Source: Neglectibacter timonensis
GTDB taxonomy: Bacteria > Bacillota > Clostridia > Oscillospirales > Acutalibacteraceae
Length of the DNA stretch: 64,000 bases
Direction of reading: 5' to 3'
Assembly: GCF_900048895.1 (NCBI RefSeq)
Contig: NZ_LT160640.1
Coordinates: forward strand, 496,001 to 560,000
The notes beneath the pieces were generated by a model. That model ran no database searches. It was given only the letters and a program-made list of their open reading frames with translations, and was not told the DNA's origin. The position numbers and the translations under genes are program-made. Of this stretch, positions 47,741 through 58,371 are shown piece after piece (within the stretch, counting starts at the first letter, position 1; each line of letters begins with the position of its first letter).

Positions 47741-47777
47741 TTTACTTTTCGAGAAACGAATGTTAAAATATTATCAA
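47741..47777 (+). promoter_or_regulatory. rex promoter overlapped by a Rex operator
   Basis: TTTACT (47741-47746), 17-base spacer, TAAAAT (47764-47769). The -10 box lies inside ATGTTAAAATATTATCAA (47760-47777), which matches the Rex operator consensus TTGTTAAnnnnTTAACAA at 12 of 14 defined positions. Bound Rex would block the polymerase. A second possible promoter (TTGAGT-17-TATACA, 47670-47698) lies upstream, where Rex would act as a roadblock. Confidence 0.75.
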
Positions 47778-47799
47778 AGTCAGGAAAGGGGTGAATGGA

Positions 47800-48438
47800 A
47801 TGCCAAGCCAGTGCGTGTCGAAGCAGACACTGCAGCGGCTTCCCACATATCTGGATTACCTGAAACGGCAGGGCACAGACCCGCCGAAGAATATTTCGGC
47901 GACGGCTATTGCGGATGCCCTGAATATGAACCATGTTGTGGTAAGAAAGGATTTGGCCTCCATCAGTACGTCCGGCAGACCGAAGGTTGGATATGACCGC
48001 GTCAATCTGATTCGGGAGTTGGAAGAATTCCTGGGATATGACAACGCTGACGATGCCATACTTGTAGGAGCCGGGAAGCTGGGCAGAGCATTGCTCTCTT
48101 ATGATGGATTTCTGCAGTACGGCCTCAACATCCTGGCAGGATTTGATACCGATCCTAAAGCGGTGAACCTTGAGGTTGGCGGGAAACCTATTCTTCCGAT
48201 GGAAAAGCTGGAAGACCTTTGTGAGAGGACGCGTGTCCGGATTGGGATCATTACAGTTCCTGGCGATTATGCTCAGGCTGTGTGTAATCTTCTGATTAAA
48301 AGCGGGATTCTTGCAGTCTGGAATTTTGCTAATGTCCATTTGGACGTTCCGGAAGGCATCTTGGTACAAAATGAAAATATGGCAGTTTCCCTGGCTCTGC
48401 TCTCCAATCATCTAAAAGAAAGATTCAGCACAAAATAA
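47800..48438 (+). CDS. rex: Redox-sensing transcriptional repressor Rex
   Basis: 212 residues. The N-terminal winged helix (KQTLQRLPTYLDYLKRQG, then SATAIADALN.N.VVVRKDLA) binds DNA when NADH is low; the Rossmann domain has the GAGKLGRALL motif near residues 88-97. NADH releases Rex from operators and induces fermentation genes. ATG 47800 is chosen because AAAGGGG lies 8 bases upstream. It is followed after 22 bases by adhE, its classic target, and its own -10 region carries an operator. Confidence 0.94.
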   Translation: MPSQCVSKQTLQRLPTYLDYLKRQGTDPPKNISATAIADALNMNHVVVRKDLASISTSGRPKVGYDRVNLIRELEEFLGYDNADDAILVGAGKLGRALLSYDGFLQYGLNILAGFDTDPKAVNLEVGGKPILPMEKLEDLCERTRVRIGIITVPGDYAQAVCNLLIKSGILAVWNFANVHLDVPEGILVQNENMAVSLALLSNHLKERFSTK

Positions 48439-48460
48439 ATAAAAAAGGATGGATCATTTC

Positions 48461-51067
48461 ATGAACACGAAAATGAACTTCGAAATCGTGGAAAACGCGG
48501 AAACATTCGAAAGAATGCTTGCCCGGGTCAAGGAAGCACAGAAGATCTATGCTTCCTACACGCAGGAGCAGGTCGATAAGATTTTCCGTGCAGCAGCAAT
48601 GGCTGCCAACCAGCAGAGAATCCCGCTGGCTAAAATGGCGGTAGAAGAAACCGGTATGGGCGTAGTGGAAGATAAGGTTATCAAAAACCACTATGCAGCC
48701 GAGTATATCTACAATGCTTATAAGGATACAAAGACGTGCGGTGTCGTCGAAGAGGATCCGGCTTACGGCATCAAGAAAATTGCTGAACCGATCGGTGTTA
48801 TCGCGGCGGTTATTCCGACCACGAACCCTACGTCTACCGCTATTTTTAAGACGCTGCTCGCATTGAAGACACGCAACGGCATTATCATCAGTCCTCATCC
48901 CCGTGCCAAAAAGTGCACGATTGAGGCGGCTAAAGTGGTGCTTGAGGCGGCAGTGAAAGCAGGTGCTCCTGAAGGGTTGTTCGGCTGGATTGACGTGCCC
49001 TCCCTGGAACTGACAAATACTCTGATGGCTGAAGCCGATATCATCTTGGCGACTGGCGGCCCCGGCATGGTAAAAGCCGCTTATTCTTCCGGTACTCCGG
49101 CATTGGGCGTGGGCGCCGGCAATACGCCTGCCATTATCGATGACACTGCGGACGTAATCCTGGCAGTGAACTCCATCATCCATTCCAAAACTTTTGACAA
49201 CGGCATGATCTGTGCGTCCGAGCAGTCTGTTATAGTATTGGAAAAAGTATATAAGCAGGTGAAGGACGAGTTCCAGAAGCGCGGCTGCTATTTCCTCAAT
49301 AAAGCTGAAACCGAGAAAGTTCGCAAAACCATCATCATCAATGGCGCTCTGAATGCAAAAATCGTGGGTCAGAAAGCGCATACCATTGCTGCCTTGGCCG
49401 GAGTTAATGTACCGGAGGAGACCAAAATTATCATCGGTGAAGTGGAGAGTGTGGATATCTCCGAGGAGTTTGCCCATGAGAAGCTTTCTCCCGTGCTGGC
49501 TATGTATAAAGCAAAGAATTTTGATGACGCTGTGGAAAAAGCCGAACATCTTATCGCAGACGGCGGTTACGGCCATACCGCTTCCCTTTATATTCATGTT
49601 TCCGAAAAAGAAAAGATGGCCAAGCATCAAGCTGCTATGAAGACCTGCCGTATTCTTGTCAACACCCCGTCCTCCCAGGGCGGCATCGGCGACCTGTACA
49701 ACTTTAAGCTGTCTCCCTCTCTTACGCTGGGCTGCGGTTCCTGGGGCGGCAACTCCGTTTCCGAGAACGTGGGCGTTAAGCACCTCATCAATATCAAGAC
49801 GGTTGCCGAGAGGAGAGAGAATATGCTGTGGTTCAGAGTACCTGAGAAGGTTTATTTCAAGAAGGGCTGCATGCCTGTTGCCCTTGACGAATTGAAAACC
49901 GAATACAACAAGAAAAAGGCGTTTATCGTCACCGACAGCTTCCTGTATAAGAACGGATACACGAAGCCGATCACCGATAAGCTGGACGAAATGGGGATTC
50001 AGTATTCCTGCTTCTGGGACGTTCAGCCTGATCCCACATTGGCCAATGCCCTGGCGGGTACGGAACGGATCCGCAGCTTTGAGCCCGACGTGATTATCGC
50101 CCTGGGCGGCGGTTCCGCCATGGACGCTGCTAAGATCATGTGGGTGCTGTACGAGCATCCTGATGCCGATTTCGAATCCATGGCCATGGACTTTATGGAT
50201 ATCCGCAAGAGAATCTATAAGTTCCCCAAGATGGGTGAGAAGGCCATGATGGTCGCCATTCCTACCTCCTCCGGTACGGGCTCTGAAGTAACTCCCTTTG
50301 CTATCATCACCGACGAAAAAACCGGTACCAAGTGGCCGTTGGCCGATTACGAGCTGCTGCCCAATATGGCTATTGTGGATGTGGACAACATGATGAGCCA
50401 GCCCAAGGGTCTGACCAGTGCTTCCGGTATTGATGTTATGACCCATGCCGTCGAGGCCTATGTCTCCATTATGGCGACCCAGTTTACCGATGGATTGGCT
50501 TTGAAAGCGATCAAAGCCGTGTTTGATTACCTGCCGTCCGCCTATGAGAACGGCGCGAATGATCCGATTGCCCGTGAAAAAATGGCAGAGGCTTCCTGTA
50601 TGGCTGGTATGGCGTTCGCCAATGCTTTCCTGGGCTTGAACCACTCTATGGCTCATAAGCTGGGCGCGTATCACCACCTGCCCCACGGCGTAGCCAACGC
50701 CTTGCTCCTCACAGAGGTCATCCGCTACAACGCCGCTGATGTTCCCACTAAGATGGGAACCTTCTCTCAGTATCAGTATCCTCATGCCAAAGAGCGTTAT
50801 ATTGAGGCAGCCCGCTTTGCCGGCATTCAGGGCAAGAACGACGACGAGGTCTTTGAAAACTTCATCAAGGCTCTGGAAGAGTTGAAGGACAAAATCGGCA
50901 TCAAAAAGACCATCAAGGAGTATGGCGTAGACGAGAAGTATTTCCTGGAGACGCTGGACGAGATGGTGGAAAATGCTTTCAACGACCAGTGCACCGGCGC
51001 CAATCCGAGATATCCGCTGATGAGCGAGATCAAAGAAATCTATCTGAAATGCTACTACGGTAAATAA
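48461..51067 (+). CDS. adhE: Bifunctional acetaldehyde-CoA / alcohol dehydrogenase
   Basis: 868 residues. The N-terminal aldehyde dehydrogenase domain carries the catalytic Cys251 (NGMICASEQ), and the C-terminal iron-dependent alcohol dehydrogenase domain has GGGSAMDAAKIM and the HSMAHKLGAYHH-type metal motif. It reduces acetyl-CoA to ethanol with two NADH, and forms spirosomes. Start at 48461 with AAGGATGG upstream; ATG 48449 is too close to that site. It is co-transcribed with rex, so autogenous Rex control includes adhE. Confidence 0.95.
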   Translation: MNTKMNFEIVENAETFERMLARVKEAQKIYASYTQEQVDKIFRAAAMAANQQRIPLAKMAVEETGMGVVEDKVIKNHYAAEYIYNAYKDTKTCGVVEEDPAYGIKKIAEPIGVIAAVIPTTNPTSTAIFKTLLALKTRNGIIISPHPRAKKCTIEAAKVVLEAAVKAGAPEGLFGWIDVPSLELTNTLMAEADIILATGGPGMVKAAYSSGTPALGVGAGNTPAIIDDTADVILAVNSIIHSKTFDNGMICASEQSVIVLEKVYKQVKDEFQKRGCYFLNKAETEKVRKTIIINGALNAKIVGQKAHTIAALAGVNVPEETKIIIGEVESVDISEEFAHEKLSPVLAMYKAKNFDDAVEKAEHLIADGGYGHTASLYIHVSEKEKMAKHQAAMKTCRILVNTPSSQGGIGDLYNFKLSPSLTLGCGSWGGNSVSENVGVKHLINIKTVAERRENMLWFRVPEKVYFKKGCMPVALDELKTEYNKKKAFIVTDSFLYKNGYTKPITDKLDEMGIQYSCFWDVQPDPTLANALAGTERIRSFEPDVIIALGGGSAMDAAKIMWVLYEHPDADFESMAMDFMDIRKRIYKFPKMGEKAMMVAIPTSSGTGSEVTPFAIITDEKTGTKWPLADYELLPNMAIVDVDNMMSQPKGLTSASGIDVMTHAVEAYVSIMATQFTDGLALKAIKAVFDYLPSAYENGANDPIAREKMAEASCMAGMAFANAFLGLNHSMAHKLGAYHHLPHGVANALLLTEVIRYNAADVPTKMGTFSQYQYPHAKERYIEAARFAGIQGKNDDEVFENFIKALEELKDKIGIKKTIKEYGVDEKYFLETLDEMVENAFNDQCTGANPRYPLMSEIKEIYLKCYYGK

Positions 51068-51081
51068 TGGAGGAGTTTACA

Positions 51082-51834
51082 ATGAAACTGGAAAAGGTCA
51101 TCGCAGTCAGAACATCCAAAACCATTTACAGGGATGGCAAATATGCGATCAAAGTGTTTGACGAGGGCTACTCCAAGGCTGATATCCTCAACGAAGCCCT
51201 GAATATTGCCCGAGTAGAGGAGACGGGTCTCTCTATTCCGGGCGTGGAGGAAGTCACCAAGATCGATGGCAAGTGGGCAATCGTCACGGATTACGCTGAG
51301 GGCAAAACCATTGCCCAGCTGATGGCGGAGGATCCCGACAAGAAGGATGAGTATTTGGAGCGTTTTGTGGATATCCAGATGGAGATCCATTCCAAGACCG
51401 CTCCCATGCTCAACAAGCTCAAGGATAAGATGAAGCGCAAGATCTCCCAGACCGGCCTGGACGCCACCACCCGTTATGAGTTGGATTCCCGTCTGGAGAG
51501 CATGCCTAAGCACAATAAGCTTTGCCACGGCGATTTCAACCCTACCAACGTGGTGATCAGCAAGGACGGCGAGAGCTATTCCATCCTGGACTGGGCCCAT
51601 GCCACCCAGGGCAATGCCAGCGCCGACGCCGCCCGCACGTACCTGCTGTTCTGGCTCAGCGGAGATATCGATTCCGCGGAGAAGTATCTGAATCTCTTCT
51701 GCAGGAAGAGCGATACTGCCAAGCAGTATGTACAGAAGTGGCTGCCGATTGTAGCCGCCTCTCAGTCTGTCAAGGGGAAACCCGAGGAAAAAGAGTTCCT
51801 GATGCACTGGGTTAACGTAGTAGAGTACGAATAA
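51082..51834 (+). CDS. Phosphotransferase (APH/choline-kinase-like fold) of unknown substrate
   Basis: 250 residues. Brenner's motif HGDFNPTNVVI (catalytic Asp) near residues 150-160 and the metal-binding ILDWAHATQGN near 169-179 place it in the APH/choline kinase superfamily; the lysine-bearing N-terminal lobe (GKYAIKVFDEG) is also visible. It starts at 51082 after GGAGGAG that begins 2 bases beyond the adhE stop, so it lies in the rex-adhE transcript. Aminoglycoside resistance is unlikely: such short adhE-linked forms occur in many gut clostridia and have no established role. Confidence 0.7.
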   Translation: MKLEKVIAVRTSKTIYRDGKYAIKVFDEGYSKADILNEALNIARVEETGLSIPGVEEVTKIDGKWAIVTDYAEGKTIAQLMAEDPDKKDEYLERFVDIQMEIHSKTAPMLNKLKDKMKRKISQTGLDATTRYELDSRLESMPKHNKLCHGDFNPTNVVISKDGESYSILDWAHATQGNASADAARTYLLFWLSGDIDSAEKYLNLFCRKSDTAKQYVQKWLPIVAASQSVKGKPEEKEFLMHWVNVVEYE

Positions 51835-51910
51835 AAATTTCGGGAAACCGAAATTCCTGCATTGCTTCAGAAACAAGTCTGCGCAGGCGGTTTTTTCCCC
51901 GCAACTTGTT

Positions 51911-52032
51911 CAGCTTGGCAAAATGCGTGTTTTGCCAAGCTGGGAGCGCTCCGGATCCGGAGCGCTCTTTCCTGAAGCTTCAAGCGATTGAAAAGTTTTC
52001 CGGATGCACTGCAGCAGAGGGCGCTGCAGTGC
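51911..52032 (+). promoter_or_regulatory. three tandem perfect hairpins before the hydrogenase operon
   Basis: Three perfect inverted repeats lie within 122 bases. 51911-51942: a 13-bp stem, loop TGCGTG. 51944-51967: a 24-base perfect palindrome, GAGCGCTCCG-GATC-CGGAGCGCTC, followed by TTT. 52006-52032: a 10-bp stem, loop AGAGGGC. The second may terminate the adhE transcript. The third lies 56 bases before the first hydrogenase-operon gene. Terminator cluster, RNA-processing sites or a structured leader are all possible. Confidence 0.6.
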
Positions 52033-52088
52033 TGAAGGACTATTTACCGGCTGCAAAAATCCGGAAACACAATATTAGGAGGATCATT

Positions 52089-52331
52089 ATGAAGATTACC
52101 ATTTGTATTGGCAGTTCCTGTCATTTGAAAGGTTCCCGTCAGATCGTGGAGCAGCTTCAGTACCTTGTCGCAGAAAATAATCTGAAGGATAAGGTGGAAC
52201 TCAGCGGCACTTTTTGTATGGGAAATTGTGTCAATGGCGTCAATGTAACGGTAGATGATAAACTCTATTCGCTTTCACCCGAGACGACGAAGGACTTTTT
52301 TGAAAAAGAAATCCTTCCCAAAGTGAAATAA
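52089..52331 (+). CDS. Thioredoxin-like [2Fe-2S] ferredoxin (NuoE-type domain)
   Basis: 80 residues. The 2Fe-2S cysteines are in CIGSSC (C-X4-C, near residues 5-10) and CMGNC (C-X3-C, near 44-48), the arrangement of NuoE/HndA-type thioredoxin-fold ferredoxins. TTAGGAGG precedes the ATG. It heads the hydrogenase operon and likely passes electrons between the hydrogenase-like proteins and another partner; its small size means it lacks the helical N-terminal domain of NuoE proper. Comparable small subunits occur beside sensory-type [FeFe] hydrogenases. Confidence 0.85.
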   Translation: MKITICIGSSCHLKGSRQIVEQLQYLVAENNLKDKVELSGTFCMGNCVNGVNVTVDDKLYSLSPETTKDFFEKEILPKVK

Positions 52332-52350
52332 GACCGAAAGGATTGATTTC

Positions 52351-52749
52351 ATGCTTGCCGTAGGCACAACAGGAAGGGCTGCCTGCCGTGTGGAAAGCGC
52401 CAACACGGCCCCAAATATGGGAAGCGGAGATCTGGCGGTGTTCGCGACTCCATCAATGATTGCATTGATGGAGTCTGCTGCCAGTAAAAGCGTTTTACCT
52501 TTGCTCAATCCCGGCGAGACCACTGTGGGAACGCATATGGATGTCACGCACACCTCTGCCACTCCGGTAGGAATGGAAATCAGGGCGGAAAGCCGCCTTG
52601 AGGAGATTGACGGACGCAGGCTTGTCTTTTCGGTAAAGGCATACGATGAGACTGGTACCATAGGAGAGGGAATCCACGAGCGGTTTATCGTACAAAAAGA
52701 AAAATTTATGTTGAAAGCGGAAGCGAAGAAAGGTCACGCTCATGACTGA
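52351..52749 (+). CDS. Hot-dog fold thioesterase, fluoroacetyl-CoA thioesterase (FlK)-like
   Basis: 132 residues. Residues Thr33, Glu41 and His67 fall at the same spacing (8 and 26) as the FlK catalytic triad Thr42, Glu50 and His76, in the motifs FATPSMIALMESA and GTHMDVTHTSATP. It should hydrolyse a short acyl-CoA or acyl thioester; the substrate is unknown, and fluoroacetate is not implied. It starts 19 bases after the [2Fe-2S] gene and overlaps the hydrogenase start by 8 bases, so it is truly part of the operon. The reason for a thioesterase here is unclear. Confidence 0.85.
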   Translation: MLAVGTTGRAACRVESANTAPNMGSGDLAVFATPSMIALMESAASKSVLPLLNPGETTVGTHMDVTHTSATPVGMEIRAESRLEEIDGRRLVFSVKAYDETGTIGEGIHERFIVQKEKFMLKAEAKKGHAHD

Positions 52750-54415
52750 ATATCTAAAGCTTAAAAAATCAAACTGCGTCAACTGTTATAAGTGTATCCG
52801 GCACTGCCCGGTGAAGTCTATCAAATTTTCATCGGATCAGGCGCAGATCGTCAGCGACGAGTGCATTTTGTGCGGACAATGTTTTGTGGTATGCCCACAG
52901 AATGCCAAGGAAATTCGGAATGACATTGACAAGGCATCCGCGTTGATTCGCGGCAGTAGGGTGATTGCCAGCGTAGCGCCTTCTTTTGTGGCGAACTATC
53001 CCGGCGCAACCATTAAAACTTTAGAAAAGGCTCTGAGAAAATTGGGATTTGAATCCGTTGAGGAAACGGCGATCGGCGCTTCTTTGGTAAAAACCCAGTA
53101 TGAAGAGCTTGTCCGGCAGAACAGGCAGGAAATTATCATCTCCTCCTGCTGCCATTCGGTCAATCTCCTGATAGAAAAATACCATCCCGAGGCGCTGCCC
53201 TATCTGGCGGCAGTCGTTTCACCGATGCAGGCTCACTGTCGAAAGATAAAGAAAGAGAATCCTGATGTCAAGACTGTTTTTATCGGGCCTTGTATCTCCA
53301 AGAAGGCAGAAGCAGAAGAATACCCTGGAGATGTGGATTGTGTGCTCACCTTTGAAGAGCTTTCTCTCTGGCTGCAGCGTGAAGATATCACTGTCGAGGC
53401 AGGAGAGGATCACCTGAACGAGAGCAAAGCCCGTCTTTTCCCGACTTCAGGAGGAATTCTCCGTTCGATGCTCTGCGATTCTAAGGATTACACTTACCTC
53501 ACTGTAGACGGAATCGATAACTGCATTGCTGCTTTGAATGATATTAAGGAAGGCAGACTGAAAAAATGCTTTATTGAAATGTCTATCTGCGCAGGAAGCT
53601 GTATCGGCGGTCCGGCTATGGAACGGAATCACAGACTGCCTGTCCGGGATTACATAGCAGTCGACCGGTATGCCGGTAAAGAGGACTTCCAAGTTTCTAT
53701 GCCGGAGGAACGGGAACTGATCAAGGACCATAAGTTTATCGGCCTTCACCGTCAGATGCCCGGGCAAAGTGATATTGAAGAAATTCTGCATAAAATGGGA
53801 AAGCACACGCCGGATCAGGAGCTTAACTGCGGCGCCTGTGGGTATAACACCTGCCGTGACAAGGCGGTTGCCGTATATCTGGGGAAAGCCAACATCAGCA
53901 TGTGCCTGCCTTTCCTGAAGGACAAAGCGGAATCGTTCTCGGATACCATCATCAACAATACGCCCAACGGTATCATTGTGTTGAACGAGGCTCTGGAAGT
54001 ACAGCAGATCAACTCTGCCGCCAGAAAAATCATGAATATCCGCAATGCGTCAGATGTTCTGGGAGATCAGGTGATTCGCATTCTGGATCCCAAGGTGTTT
54101 CTGGACGTCATGCAGACGGGGAGAAGCATTCATGATGAGAAGGTTTATCTCGCTGAGTATCAGAAATATGTGGAACAGTCGGTAATCTATGACAAGAGCT
54201 ATCGTATTGTAATGTGTATCATGCGCGACGTGACTGAAGAAGAGCATGAACGCATACAGAAAGAAAAGATCAGTCAGCATACGATTGAAGTCACAGACCG
54301 GGTCATCGAAAAACAGATGCGCGTGGTGCAGGAAATCGCTTCCCTTTTGGGAGAGACGACGGCAGAAACCAAAATTGCGCTGACAAACCTAAAGGATTCG
54401 CTGAACGATGAATAA
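52742..54415 (+). CDS. Putative sensory [FeFe] hydrogenase (group C-like) with C-terminal PAS domain
   Basis: 557 residues. Two [4Fe-4S] ferredoxin motifs come first (Cys12, 15, 18, 22 and Cys41, 44, 47, 51). The H-cluster domain follows with modified loops: SSCCHS (134-139) for TSCCP, IGPCISKK for MPC..K, and EMSICAGSCIGG for E.MACPGGC. Then a Cys-rich module (NCGACGYNTCRDKA) that could bind another cluster, a PAS domain near 400-500 and a coiled-coil end. The order matches group C hydrogenases, thought to sense H2 or redox rather than produce gas. Its stop overlaps the phosphatase start by 8 bases. Confidence 0.9.
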   Translation: MTEYLKLKKSNCVNCYKCIRHCPVKSIKFSSDQAQIVSDECILCGQCFVVCPQNAKEIRNDIDKASALIRGSRVIASVAPSFVANYPGATIKTLEKALRKLGFESVEETAIGASLVKTQYEELVRQNRQEIIISSCCHSVNLLIEKYHPEALPYLAAVVSPMQAHCRKIKKENPDVKTVFIGPCISKKAEAEEYPGDVDCVLTFEELSLWLQREDITVEAGEDHLNESKARLFPTSGGILRSMLCDSKDYTYLTVDGIDNCIAALNDIKEGRLKKCFIEMSICAGSCIGGPAMERNHRLPVRDYIAVDRYAGKEDFQVSMPEERELIKDHKFIGLHRQMPGQSDIEEILHKMGKHTPDQELNCGACGYNTCRDKAVAVYLGKANISMCLPFLKDKAESFSDTIINNTPNGIIVLNEALEVQQINSAARKIMNIRNASDVLGDQVIRILDPKVFLDVMQTGRSIHDEKVYLAEYQKYVEQSVIYDKSYRIVMCIMRDVTEEEHERIQKEKISQHTIEVTDRVIEKQMRVVQEIASLLGETTAETKIALTNLKDSLNDE

Positions 54416-55580
54416 TCTTTGTACAGATATTGGATTTATGAGCCTCAACAAATGGGGCGAACAGCTCTGCGGCGACCGTGTTGAAATCGTGGAGCAGGGA
54501 GAAAATTCTACCGTTATCGTTTTGGCAGATGGTATGGGCAGCGGCGTTAAGGCCAACATCCTCTCTTCTCTGACTTCCAAGATCATTTCTACGATGATGG
54601 CGGCTAATATGAAAATTGAGGACTGTGTATCTACCATCGCTGCAACGCTGCCTATTTGCGCAGTGCGTGGAGTGGCTTATTCCACTTTTACGATCATCCG
54701 TATCATTGAGAACGAAGAGGCTGAAATCATTCAGTATGATAATCCTTTTCTCATCCTGCTGCGCAATGGTAAATTTGTGGAGATTCCCAAGGTTGGAAAT
54801 GAAATCGAAGGCAAAATGATCTACAAGTCGAAAATCAAACTCCAGGAAAATGATTTCCTGGTGGTCACCAGCGATGGCGCCATCCATGCGGGAATCGGCT
54901 CTTCACTTAATTTTGGCTGGGAACGGAAAGACATCGTCCAGTTTTTGGAGCAGATGTATGATGAGAGTTATACCGCTAAGACCTTTGGCACGATCCTGCT
55001 GGAAGAGTGCAATCATCTGTATGGAGAAAAGCCAGGGGATGATACAACCGTCTGCGTTGTGAAAATCAGGAACCGTTCTCCTGTCAATTTGATGATTGGT
55101 CCGCCTTCCGACAGAAATGACGTGAATAAAATGCTGTCCCTCTTTTTTTCCAAGGAGGGAAAACATATTGTCTGCGGCGGAACCACCTCTACCATTACGG
55201 CGGAGTTCCTCCAGAAGCCCATGGTGGCAAATCTTGATTATCTTGATCCCGAAATACCGCCTACGGCTGCCATTGAAGGCGTAGATCTGGTGACGGAGGG
55301 TGTTATTACCATCAGTAAGGTGCTGGACTACGCTAAGGACTATCTCCAGGATAATGAGACCTACACGGAGTGGGGTTACAAGCGGGACGGCGCCTCCCTG
55401 ATCTCCCGCATGCTGTTTGAAGAGGCTACCGACATTAACTTCTTTGTGGGAAGAGCCATCAATCCTGCTCATCAGAATCCGAATCTGCCCATCAATTTCA
55501 ATATCAAGATGCGTTTGGTGGACGAGCTCAGCGAATGCTTGCAGAAGATGGGGAAGAAGATTAAAGTAAGCTATTTTTAA
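54408..55580 (+). CDS. SpoIIE/PP2C-type serine phosphatase
   Basis: 390 residues. The N-terminal 220 residues form a PP2C-like domain with the metal-binding ADGMGSGVKA near residues 39-48, TSDGAIHAG near 149-157 and PGDDTTV near 210. The remaining 160 residues are unassigned. Soluble, without signal peptide. It overlaps the PAS-hydrogenase gene, and AAGGATT lies upstream of ATG 54408. Such phosphatase genes are known partners of group C hydrogenases, so it is the likely output of H2/redox sensing, dephosphorylating an unknown protein. Confidence 0.85.
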   Translation: MNNLCTDIGFMSLNKWGEQLCGDRVEIVEQGENSTVIVLADGMGSGVKANILSSLTSKIISTMMAANMKIEDCVSTIAATLPICAVRGVAYSTFTIIRIIENEEAEIIQYDNPFLILLRNGKFVEIPKVGNEIEGKMIYKSKIKLQENDFLVVTSDGAIHAGIGSSLNFGWERKDIVQFLEQMYDESYTAKTFGTILLEECNHLYGEKPGDDTTVCVVKIRNRSPVNLMIGPPSDRNDVNKMLSLFFSKEGKHIVCGGTTSTITAEFLQKPMVANLDYLDPEIPPTAAIEGVDLVTEGVITISKVLDYAKDYLQDNETYTEWGYKRDGASLISRMLFEEATDINFFVGRAINPAHQNPNLPINFNIKMRLVDELSECLQKMGKKIKVSYF

Positions 55581-55604
55581 GTGGATAATGGAAGGAAAAA
55601 GCAA

Positions 55605-57047
55605 ATGGCAATGAAACCCCTACAGCTCAGAAAGTTTGATACAAAGGTACAGTACTTAAAATACAAGGTACTCCGCGAAGTGGCGCGGTATGCCTTTGAA
55701 GATAAGCTGCTCGAAAGTTACACGGAGATTCCAAAAATCATCGTGAAAAACGGCAAGCCGACCATGCGGTGCTGTATCTATAAGGAACGTGCCATTGTGG
55801 AAGAACGCATTAAAATGGCTATGGGCGGGGATAAGAATAATCCCAATGTGATTGAGGTTATCGATATCGCCTGCGACGAATGCCCAGTGAGCGGCTACAA
55901 TGTTACCAGCGCCTGCAGGGGATGTCTGGCACATCGCTGTGAAGATGTGTGCCGAAGGGGAGCTATCACATTTGACGAGCATCAAAAGGCTCATATCGAT
56001 AAGTCAAAATGTGTAGAATGCGGCCAATGTGCGAAGGTCTGTCCTTACAGTGCGATAGCCAATGAAAAAAGGCCCTGTGAAAAGGCCTGTAAAATCAAGG
56101 CTATCAGCATGGGGGAAGACGGGGCCGCCTCCATTGACAATGAAACCTGTACTTCATGCGGCGCCTGTGTGTATCAGTGCCCCTTTGGCGCTATTATGGA
56201 CAAGTCTTTTATCCTTGATGTGGTGGACCTGATCAAAAAGAGCGGAGACAACCAGAATTACAAGCTCTATGCGGTAGTAGCGCCTTCTATTTCCAGCCAG
56301 TTCAGCTACGCTAAGCTTGGTCAGGTGATCTCTGGGATTAAAAAGCTTGGTTTTTTCACAGTTGTAGAGGCAGCCTTGGGAGCAGATATGGTGGCATATT
56401 TGGAATCCCAGGAACTGGCAGAAAAGGGATTTCTTACAAGCTCTTGCTGCCCTGCTTTTGTCAGTTATATTGAGACGCAGTTTCCGCAGCTGAAAGAGAA
56501 TATTTCTCACAATCTTTCACCGGCAGCAACGATTGCAAAATATATCAAAGAAAAAACGCCCGGCGCAAAAGTAGTTTTCATTGGACCGTGTACTGCCAAA
56601 AAGATGGAATTTCAAAAGGAGGACGTCCGTCCCTATATCGATTCTGTCATCACCTTTGAAGAATTGCAGGCGCTGTTTGACAGTCGTGATATTGACATAA
56701 ATACGCTGGAGGAGGATGTTTTGGATAACGCTTCCTATTACGGTCGTATTTTTGCCCGCAGCGGCGGTCTCAGCGATGCGGTGAAAGAGGCTATGAAAGA
56801 ACAGAACATTGAATTCGATCTAAAGGCATTGCCCTGCGATGGAATAGAAGCTTGCAGGATGGCTCTGCTGAAAGCGAGTAAAGGCGTGTTGCCGGCAAAC
56901 TTTATCGAAGGAATGGCCTGTATAGGCGGCTGCATTGGCGGAGCAGGCTGTTTGACGCACGGAGAGAAGAATAAGGCCGATGTGGATAAATACGGTATGG
57001 AAGCCTATGAGAAAACCATTACCGATGCCATCGGTGTCATGAAGTAA
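55605..57047 (+). CDS. Monomeric [FeFe] hydrogenase (group B-like)
   Basis: 480 residues from ATG 55605 with GGAAGG 9 bases upstream; GTG 55581 lacks a site. An N-terminal domain of about 90 residues is followed by Cys-rich clusters (CDECPVSG, CRGCLAHRCEDVC, two 4Fe-4S ferredoxin motifs CVECGQCAKVCP and CTSCGACVYQCP). The H-cluster domain has TSSCCPAF (278-285), IGPCTAKK and EGMACIGGCIGGAGC. These are group B signatures, widespread in gut clostridia; it should couple ferredoxin oxidation to H2, though group B enzymes are little characterised. Confidence 0.9.
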   Translation: MAMKPLQLRKFDTKVQYLKYKVLREVARYAFEDKLLESYTEIPKIIVKNGKPTMRCCIYKERAIVEERIKMAMGGDKNNPNVIEVIDIACDECPVSGYNVTSACRGCLAHRCEDVCRRGAITFDEHQKAHIDKSKCVECGQCAKVCPYSAIANEKRPCEKACKIKAISMGEDGAASIDNETCTSCGACVYQCPFGAIMDKSFILDVVDLIKKSGDNQNYKLYAVVAPSISSQFSYAKLGQVISGIKKLGFFTVVEAALGADMVAYLESQELAEKGFLTSSCCPAFVSYIETQFPQLKENISHNLSPAATIAKYIKEKTPGAKVVFIGPCTAKKMEFQKEDVRPYIDSVITFEELQALFDSRDIDINTLEEDVLDNASYYGRIFARSGGLSDAVKEAMKEQNIEFDLKALPCDGIEACRMALLKASKGVLPANFIEGMACIGGCIGGAGCLTHGEKNKADVDKYGMEAYEKTITDAIGVMK

Positions 57048-57073
57048 GATTTGAACGAAAGGGAGGTCGGAAG

Positions 57074-57145
57074 GAGACTGTCCCTGCGGGACGATGTGGC
57101 CTGTCCGCAACAATCCTGCAGGAGTCTCTTGCGGCCTTCTTCTTT
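57074..57145 (+). terminator. terminator after the hydrogenase operon
   Basis: GAGACT-GTC-CCTGC pairs with GCAGG-AGTCTC across a 30-base loop, followed by CTTCTTCTTTTTTCC. Imperfect but well placed. Confidence 0.5.
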
Positions 57146-57330
57146 TTTCCGTACATCGAACGGTTTATCTGAAAGTCACTCAATTCCATCTTATTAAGAC
57201 TCTTGTTTACTGTCTTTACAAATTTGTGCGAAAGATCAAACAGAACATATCTATTATTCAGTAGACCTTGATAGCTGGATTTCTAAATTTATGGTATTTG
57301 CTGTCCAGAAAAAAGGAGGAAAGTGTAAAA

Positions 57331-58371
57331 ATGAAAGCGTGCTATTTCCTTGGTGACAAGAACTTTGAAGTGCAGGATATTGATATTCCAGAAGCGCTGC
57401 CCGGAACTGTTGTCATAAAAAACATGGTATGCGGCATCTGTGGTACGGATGTACATATCTATCATGGAGAGCCCGGTTCAGCGGATGTGACTCCGCCCAT
57501 TGTGCTCGGGCACGAGTATTCCGGAGAGGTGGTTGCCGTAGGAGAGGGGGTTACAGGTATCTCTTGCGGTGATCATGTGACGATTGACCCCAACATTTAT
57601 TGCGGTAGCTGCGTTGCTTGTCGGAGCGGTAAAAAACAGATGTGCGACTCAATGGAGGCTATTGGTGTTACCCGGGACGGAGGATTCGCCCAATACAGCA
57701 GAGTGCCTGCTTCACAGGTGTATGTTCTCTCTCCGGAAATTTCTTTTGAAGCGGGGGCTATGGCGGAACCGGTTGCCTGTTGCCTGCATGGAATTGATCT
57801 GGCTGGAATTCGTGCTGGAGACCGTGTTTGTGTGGTAGGCGGCGGCGCAATCGGCCTCATCATGGTACAGCTTGCTAGGCTTTCCGGTGCATCGAAAATT
57901 ATTTTAAGCGAGCCGAACGAAAAGCGTCGTAGCGCGGCACTCTCGCTGGGGGCAGACGCTGCGTTCAACCCCCTGGAGGAAGGTAGTCTGGAGCGGTTTC
58001 TTGCCCAAACCGATGATATGGGCGCAGATGTTGTTATTGAATGTGTCGGAAACCTTTCCGCAGTGCGAAGCGCATTTCAGTTTGCGCGCAGAGGAGCTAC
58101 AATCCTGCTATTCAGTGTGCCGAAAGTGGACGCCACATTTGAGCTGCCGCTCTTTGAGGTATTTAAAAAAGAGTTGACTATTAAGGGTTCTTTTGTGAAC
58201 CCGGACACCCATGGCAGAGCGGTACAGTTGATCAATTCAGGAAAACTGCGTTTTGATACATTGATTACGCATCGTTATACAGTGGAGGAACTACCGGAAG
58301 CAATTGCAATGCAAATGAGCGATGCATCGATAAAAGTGGTGGTTTGTCCTAATCATTTGGATGCAGAATAA
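57331..58371 (+). CDS. Zinc-dependent medium-chain alcohol dehydrogenase
   Basis: 346 residues. Catalytic-zinc residues in CGICGTDVH near residues 34-42 and GHEYSGEV; the structural-zinc loop CGSCVACRSGKKQMC has four cysteines; the Rossmann glycine motif is VVGGGAIGLIMVQLA near 169-183. Closest in type to sorbitol/threonine/2,3-butanediol-type dehydrogenases; substrate is undetermined. AAGGAGG lies 11 bases before ATG 57331. It lies downstream of the hydrogenase terminator and appears to be a separate unit. Confidence 0.85.
   Translation: MKACYFLGDKNFEVQDIDIPEALPGTVVIKNMVCGICGTDVHIYHGEPGSADVTPPIVLGHEYSGEVVAVGEGVTGISCGDHVTIDPNIYCGSCVACRSGKKQMCDSMEAIGVTRDGGFAQYSRVPASQVYVLSPEISFEAGAMAEPVACCLHGIDLAGIRAGDRVCVVGGGAIGLIMVQLARLSGASKIILSEPNEKRRSAALSLGADAAFNPLEEGSLERFLAQTDDMGADVVIECVGNLSAVRSAFQFARRGATILLFSVPKVDATFELPLFEVFKKELTIKGSFVNPDTHGRAVQLINSGKLRFDTLITHRYTVEELPEAIAMQMSDASIKVVVCPNHLDAE

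Follow-up and report, generated by a model that had tools for sequence, protein, structure and literature searches.

What decides whether clostridia of the gut and rumen make ethanol or acetate when H2 increases? A candidate for this choice, which bears on interspecies hydrogen transfer and on biofuel strains, is a cluster of hydrogenase and phosphatase genes that is conserved and has already been described in Ruminococcus albus and, in part, in Thermoanaerobacterium. Here we analyze its counterpart in Neglectibacter timonensis, in a stretch of 64,000 nucleotides (the window; contig NZ_LT160640.1, positions 496,001 to 560,000). The published systems are cited from excerpts of the respective papers. 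In R. albus, transcripts of an eight-gene cluster are 111-fold lower in low-H2 co-culture; ethanol/acetate routing is the published reading of this cluster, in which the group C protein is proposed to sense H2 and a phosphatase is mentioned (PMC6776011). The change given for HydA2 is 90-fold, and both HydA2 and HydS are located on the plasmid pRumal01 (PMC10838669). The eight genes are presumably the eight annotated on pRumal01, in the order Rex, AdhE, phosphotransferase, two [2Fe-2S] proteins, [FeFe] hydrogenase, SpoIIE phosphatase, and 4Fe-4S dicluster protein. The single transcriptional unit described by Zheng et al. (2014) reportedly includes Aad, a redox repressor, a phosphatase, and a Ser/Thr kinase.

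The hfsABCD operon of Thermoanaerobacterium saccharolyticum and T. thermosaccharolyticum contains a PAS hydrogenase (HfsB), a serine phosphatase (HfsC), and a ferredoxin-linked hydrogenase (HfsD), in the same order as in the window. HfsA has no stated counterpart there, the excerpts do not name rex, adhE, or the kinase gene as operon members, and the two systems are set side by side from descriptions rather than sequences. In T. saccharolyticum, deletion of hfsA or of hfsB, the HydS-like gene, raised ethanol and increased the adhE transcript two- to threefold, whereas deletion of hfsC (the phosphatase) or hfsD brought no such rise; NADH-dependent alcohol dehydrogenase activity went up in hfs mutants but the corresponding aldehyde dehydrogenase activity did not, in which the authors see a hint of posttranscriptional control (PMC5707799). 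High ethanol was confined to strains that had hfsD, hydAB, and nfnAB but lacked hfsB (PMC11837493).

How does the N. timonensis locus compare with these systems? The conserved unit occupies positions 47791-57047 of the window, with every gene on the forward strand:

47760-47777, + strand: Rex-operator-like inverted repeat in the rex promoter region, with 2 mismatches to TTGTTAANNNNTTAACAA, which we take to be the Rex-operator consensus
47791-48438, + strand: rex, NADH/NAD-responsive repressor (NF003994, 277 bits, cut-off 130; 49% identity to R. albus pRumal01 Rex)
48449-51067, + strand: adhE, bifunctional acetaldehyde/alcohol dehydrogenase, 10 bases after rex (74% to the pRumal01 adhE product)
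51067-51834, + strand: APH-fold phosphotransferase/kinase (PF01636, 48.5 bits, cut-off 23.2; 67% to R. albus WP_013483408.1)
51835-52088, + strand: intergenic region, 254 bases long, in which lie two strong hairpins and parts of an interspersed repeat (folding z -7.56)
52089-52331, + strand: thioredoxin-like [2Fe-2S] protein (PF01257, 35.9 bits, cut-off 24.8; 71% to the first R. albus [2Fe-2S] protein)
52351-52749, + strand: FlK-type acyl-CoA thioesterase (PF22636, 135.6 bits, cut-off 27)
52742-54415, + strand: HydS, sensory-type [FeFe] hydrogenase with N-terminal Fer4, Fe_hyd_lg_C H-domain, C-terminal FeS, and PAS (Pfam/NCBIfam; 60% to R. albus HydS)
54408-55073, + strand: PP2C/SpoIIE-type phosphatase domain, residues 1-222 (PF07228, 57.9 bits; whole protein 67% to the R. 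albus phosphatase)
55074-55580, + strand: C-terminal domain of the phosphatase, ~168 residues, no named family (ten invariant residues; alpha/beta in the AlphaFold2 [AF2] model)
55605-57047, + strand: monomeric [FeFe] hydrogenase, R. albus HydA2 orthologue, HfsD-like (TIGR04105, 570.6 bits, cut-off 450; 76% to HydA2)
57049-57150, + strand: terminator-like hairpin (57116-57134) with a T-rich tail, closing the unit (terminator scan; folding z -3.47)

Judged by its sequence, this locus is the orthologue of the R. albus rex-adhE-kinase-[2Fe-2S]-hydS-PP2C-hydA2 cluster. The two agree in which genes they contain and in how these are ordered, from rex through the monomeric hydrogenase gene on one strand, and in an 8-base overlap of hydS and the PP2C gene. 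One slot differs—a second [2Fe-2S] gene in R. albus, the thioesterase gene in the window—and the kinase-fold gene is followed by 17 bases in R. albus but by the 254-base, hairpin-rich gap in the window. The R. albus copy is plasmid borne, whereas the window copy lies on a 1.67-Mb contig. A protein search of a plasmid collection matched three records, including pRumal01 of R. albus 7; a Monoglobus pectinilyticus record carries the [2Fe-2S], HydS, PP2C, and hydrogenase genes, with no rex, adhE, or phosphotransferase gene within its 9-kb flanks. The initial annotation had proposed a five-gene unit running from the [2Fe-2S] gene to the second hydrogenase gene, beside Rex/AdhE. An open reading frame (ORF) check reproduced its five ORFs, their 19- and 24-base gaps, and their two 8-base overlaps, and Pfam/NCBIfam agreed with the domains it had assigned ([2Fe-2S], thioesterase, PAS hydrogenase, PP2C, second hydrogenase). 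The genes do stand beside Rex/AdhE; the proposed extent was too short, however, as the conserved unit starts at rex, and the cluster was already known from R. albus. What we add here is a phylum-wide survey, the sporadic nature of the thioesterase, the kinase-fold neighbor, and the unnamed C-terminal domain of the phosphatase.

How widespread is the arrangement among other genomes? PP2C relatives at E <= 1e-20 were found in 62 of 148 related genomes and in 120 of 398 genomes of the phylum. Three sets of loci were compared: 60 relatives (of 62 places below 1e-20 besides the window, two contig-edge fragments of genome G098 being left out); 100 phylum loci chosen by the analyst from 147 places, with the window's own genome and G107 set aside and the rest being fragments, near-duplicates, and some weaker full-length matches; and 80 named loci out of 581 confirmed candidates. 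Thresholds were the analyst's own, and loci with too little sequence on one side were excluded from that side's denominator. The hydS gene lies directly upstream of the PP2C gene in 58 of 58 determinable relatives (two more had too little sequence) and in 99 of 100 phylum loci, together 157 of 158. The 8-base overlap recurs in 42 of 59 relatives (start not placed in 16, a 4-base overlap in one) and in 78 of 79 named loci (start not placed in one), and for this reason the arrangement is more than chance; the count for the wider phylum is 4 of 99, with the start not placed in 84 and other spacings in 11. A [2Fe-2S] gene stands upstream in 57 of 58 relatives and 81 of 94 phylum loci. The pair adjoins either a monomeric hydrogenase gene (directly following PP2C in 50 of 59 relatives and 23 of 97 phylum loci) or hydrogenase genes of the bifurcating type (HydA-, NuoF-, and NuoE-like genes in 48, 48, and 47 of 100 phylum loci). 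The same core is seen in the 80 named loci, which include Ruminococcus bromii (L297) and records labeled Anaeromassilibacillus, Neglecta, and Acutalibacter. Of the loci as fetched (~7 kb on each side), 20 of the 60 from relatives and 36 of the 100 from the phylum include Rex. When ORFs within 6.5 kb were clustered across 161 loci, the clusters present in more than 11 loci were, beyond hydrogenase, PP2C, [2Fe-2S], NuoF-like, Rex, AdhE, and kinase-fold proteins, opposite-strand shadow ORFs. The survey results point to the HydS-phosphatase pair as a module.

The neighborhood survey that the initial annotation had suggested thus upheld four of its five genes in relatives, namely the HydS/PP2C pair with its [2Fe-2S] and monomeric hydrogenase neighbors, but not the thioesterase as a regular member. 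The thioesterase gene occupies the slot in the window and in 5 of 56 determinable relatives, in none of 93 other phylum loci, and in none of 80 named loci. A homologue is present in 45 of the 148 related genomes, six times in the slot (window included) and 39 times elsewhere. Each of the six thioesterase-bearing loci has one [2Fe-2S] gene, as against two in the R. albus type; two are found in 43 of 79 named loci. The thioesterase is therefore a sporadic accessory in the slot of the second [2Fe-2S] gene. Its T33, E41, and H67 align with T42, E50, and H76 of FlK, residues that we take to be catalytic.

Does the window HydS resemble a sensor? It carries the sequence marks of the group C sensory type, that is, the H-cluster Cys ligands, the C-terminal FeS site, and PAS. 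It shares this architecture with TmHydS, the group C protein of Thermotoga maritima, and both have Gly at the CpI M353 position and Ser at the CpI M497 position (PMC10055695). They differ at the relay position, which is Ala131 in TmHydS and Cys (C136) in the window protein. In an alignment of 155 HydS sequences from the window, R. albus, and the survey loci, the four H-cluster Cys ligands are conserved in 155, 155, 155, and 154. At the relay position, 89 sequences have Cys, 30 have Ala, and 24 have Ser, a share of Cys well above the published 17% of sensory sequences (PMC10055695). The M497 position is Ser in 50 (window included), Leu in 48, Asn in 26, and Met in 24. All 70 monomeric hydrogenases compared retain the relay Cys and Met, and R. 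albus HydA2 scores 577.4 bits on TIGR04105. Class labels for these enzymes differ between papers: the R. albus enzyme is placed in group A1 (PMC6776011) and TsHfsD in group B (PMC8924675).

The phosphatase has both the metal-binding Asp residues and the fold of the PP2C/SpoIIE type. D41, G42, D156, G157, D211, and D212 are invariant in 40 diverse sequences, and in the AF2 model (predicted local distance difference test score [pLDDT] 84.7), residues 1-222 match the PP2C structure 3pu9 (VIA-align Z 25.1, root-mean-square deviation 2.6, 217 aligned). Its C-terminal domain is the least known part of the cluster. Across 33 sequences it has ten invariant residues, and the motifs GPP, CGGTT, EG-DLVTEG, and G-A-N--H are strongly conserved and might tentatively mark a ligand pocket. 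The window domain has no Pfam or NCBIfam match, and other members have single weak matches; no convincing profile match was found in the PDB (the best, 3trj at E 0.11, was not used), and the Foldseek and VIA lists of the phosphatase consist of phosphatase-domain matches, so that the C-terminal fold was barely probed. The domain occurs in 76 of 249 genomes, in all but six entries within ORFs of 379-504 residues, which were taken by size to be the same phosphatase. Three of the exceptions are lone ORFs of 159-168 residues in one genus (G265:C3:175625-176071, G297:C26:242965-243411, and G349:C1:2420643-2421098); the others are two pieces in G261 and a partial match in G177.

Which kinase might oppose this phosphatase? 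The initial annotation held that no kinase lies in the window, which is unsafe because the gene at 51067-51834 encodes an APH-fold kinase. Its start is more likely the ATG at 51082, where most homologues begin. The nearest solved structures to the AF2 model (pLDDT 91.7) are aminoglycoside (APH(3')), homoserine, and choline kinases, with Z of ~17-20, and a small-molecule substrate is for this reason as likely as a protein. D156 of the HGD motif is kept in at least 90% of 39 sequences, N161 and D175 (LDW) are invariant, and PDB protein kinases give short, weak profile matches. The neighbor in the R. albus cluster is reportedly labeled a Ser/Thr protein kinase.

The kinase-fold gene lies upstream of the unit in 25 of 58 relatives and in one of 95 phylum loci. 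Among named loci with enough sequence to judge, 41 of 69 have it ahead of the [2Fe-2S] gene (11 more have too little sequence); in these 41 it is behind adhE in 26, without adhE despite more than 1.5 kb of upstream sequence in 9, and on too short a sequence to tell in 6. The gap to the [2Fe-2S] gene, measured between alignment ends, is 14 to 332 bases and falls below 30 in 25 of 41. At 20 other places (18 in genomes without the phosphatase and two second copies), the gene is behind adhE in 17, and variant orders include adhE-kinase-hydrogenase (L224), adhE-kinase-[2Fe-2S] (L238 and L240), and rex-kinase-hydrogenase (L227). Given these placements, we assign the gene to the rex-adhE side of the cluster and regard it as a plausible, though not universal, partner of the phosphatase. 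Across 148 genomes, 48 have both genes, 14 the phosphatase only, 24 the kinase only, and 62 neither (Fisher P = 3e-9); with the window's genus removed, the counts are 25, 14, 22, and 58 (P = 3e-4). This co-occurrence is only suggestive because kinship is uncorrected and the lists were compiled by hand. We offer tentatively, as a rather doubtful idea, that the kinase-fold protein and the HydS-coupled phosphatase might be an opposed pair acting on AdhE or a cluster regulator, with the phosphatase C-terminal domain as a metabolite-sensing second input; such a switch would combine an H2 signal with a small-molecule signal.

How might these parts work together? The genes are identified, their order is conserved, and their active-site residues are intact. 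We infer that the window HydS senses H2 and passes a signal to PP2C, which acts on a phosphorylated target, and that the kinase-fold protein and the thioesterase have the roles given below. The H-cluster of HydS would sense H2 or the redox state that H2 imposes, and the signal would travel through the C-terminal FeS site and PAS domain of HydS to PP2C, the product of the overlapping gene. PP2C would then alter how a regulator, or AdhE itself, is phosphorylated, possibly in opposition to the upstream kinase-fold protein. At high H2, adhE and the ferredoxin-only hydrogenase would be made, sending electrons to ethanol and, from ferredoxin, to H2; at low H2 the cluster would be off, and a separate hydrogenase of the bifurcating type and acetate formation would take over. 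The window's own genome also has bifurcating-type HydABC-like genes (named by eye). The thioesterase would be a dispensable passenger that may trim acyl-CoA. We consider it probable that an H2-set HydS signal steers adhE, hydA2, and the choice of ethanol or acetate through PP2C in this way. The proposal in the initial annotation that the sensor, phosphatase, and hydrogenase beside Rex/AdhE set fermentation routing agrees with how the R. albus cluster has been interpreted in print (PMC6776011) and with the hfs genetics (PMC5707799 and PMC11837493), as far as the excerpts of those papers go.

Several observations weigh against this scheme. The relay Cys of the window HydS, a residue that most sensory sequences lack, somewhat weakens the case for a purely sensory role. 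The rise of ethanol and adhE transcript upon deletion of hfsB, but not of hfsC or hfsD, implies, as excerpted, a sign of control unlike that of the simple R. albus picture. A tblastn search of the window region and 160 loci with four own-genome queries detected no STAS, anti-sigma, or HATPase partner next to the pair; an RsbW-type kinase/STAS partner was rejected because these queries (two HATPase-like, one SpoIIAA-like, and one SpoIIAB-like) had no match there. The kinase-fold gene is not a universal partner, being missing from its place in 33 of the 58 relatives and in 94 of the 95 phylum loci and often standing behind adhE without the hydrogenases. Finally, the five downstream genes may be a separate or attenuated transcript in this genome, given the 254-base gap and its hairpins. 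GC-rich hairpins also occur in the kinase-[2Fe-2S] gap of several relatives from the genus, some with short T-rich tails; a terminator scan listed none in 51835-52088 of the window. The gap hairpins are a possible partial terminator between the rex-adhE-kinase and hydrogenase genes.

Could HydS instead be an electron-transfer or catalytic partner, with the [2Fe-2S] protein, HydS, and the monomeric hydrogenase forming one ferredoxin-linked complex tuned by the phosphatase? The H-cluster ligands and the C136 relay Cys would suit this role, as would the nearly constant presence of [2Fe-2S] genes and the suggestion that HfsABC might yield a working hydrogenase even when HfsD is missing (PMC13277313, in excerpt). 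However, HydS carries a PAS domain, the excerpts treat R. albus HydS and HydA2 as two distinct hydrogenases, and deletion of hfsB alone raised benzyl viologen hydrogenase activity (PMC5707799); we think this arrangement unlikely. The thioesterase might itself work in the circuit, for example by reporting or lowering acyl-CoA as a signal of overflow. Its conserved FlK active-site residues, its 8-base overlap with hydS in the window, and its recurrence in the same slot of six genomes that each have one [2Fe-2S] gene speak for such a role; yet the slot lacks it in 51 of 56 relatives and in all 93 phylum and all 80 named loci, and it lies elsewhere in 39 of 45 homologue-bearing relatives, which makes a working part in the circuit highly improbable.

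The real switch might, alternatively, be Rex and NADH, with the hydrogenase and phosphatase genes merely riding along with the Rex regulon. The proximity of Rex in a third of relatives and 36 of the phylum loci, and the Rex-like site in the rex promoter region, are consistent with this. That site is weak, though, because the window holds 4 matches at up to 3 mismatches against 2.9 expected. Rex control of the five genes was rejected, as no Rex-like site with up to 3 mismatches precedes the [2Fe-2S] gene or the hydrogenase genes. In T. saccharolyticum, moreover, higher ethanol goes with higher expression of rex, the reverse of what a simple repressor model would give (PMC5707799, in excerpt). 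We therefore judge a Rex-only switch to be quite unlikely, and we retain H2 sensing through HydS and PP2C as the reading that we favor.

Related genes elsewhere provide further context. In the window's own genome, a bifurcating-type hydrogenase operon (L262:4673-13359; C14:360672-369358) includes a 446-aa group-D-like HydS without PAS, two HATPase-like proteins (143 and 190 aa), and DRTGG-like and PHP-like proteins (named by eye); a HATPase-like serine kinase beside this second sensory-type hydrogenase is a possible candidate partner of PP2C. Homologues of the group-D-like HydS and of a HATPase-like protein stand divergently beside the HydS-PP2C pair in one of the 80 named loci (L314:1032-6466). 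A 446-aa [FeFe] hydrogenase ORF also follows sigF by ~40 bases in a spoIIAA-spoIIAB-sigF-like operon of the own genome (L263:8097-10922, reverse strand; named by eye). A general link between sigF and this hydrogenase was rejected: the hydrogenase (1e-60) occurs in 7 of 60 genomes, own genome included, and in the three others where both genes turned up (G021, G035, and G097) sigF lies on another contig or ~1.6 Mb away. One contig (L159; G313 contig 37) has two HydS-PP2C pairs ~7.5 kb apart, one followed by a monomeric hydrogenase and the other by a group A type match, and several other phylum genomes likewise have two phosphatase matches. Within the intergenic gap of the window, the repeat at 51855-51956 recurs as a 48-66-base piece at five other places in the own genome, with a 33-base piece beside four of them (81-85% identity). 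A zinc alcohol dehydrogenase gene (57268-58371) lies downstream of the unit on the same strand, and 11 of 161 loci have a member of its cluster close to the pair, 10 of these loci being the window or relatives.

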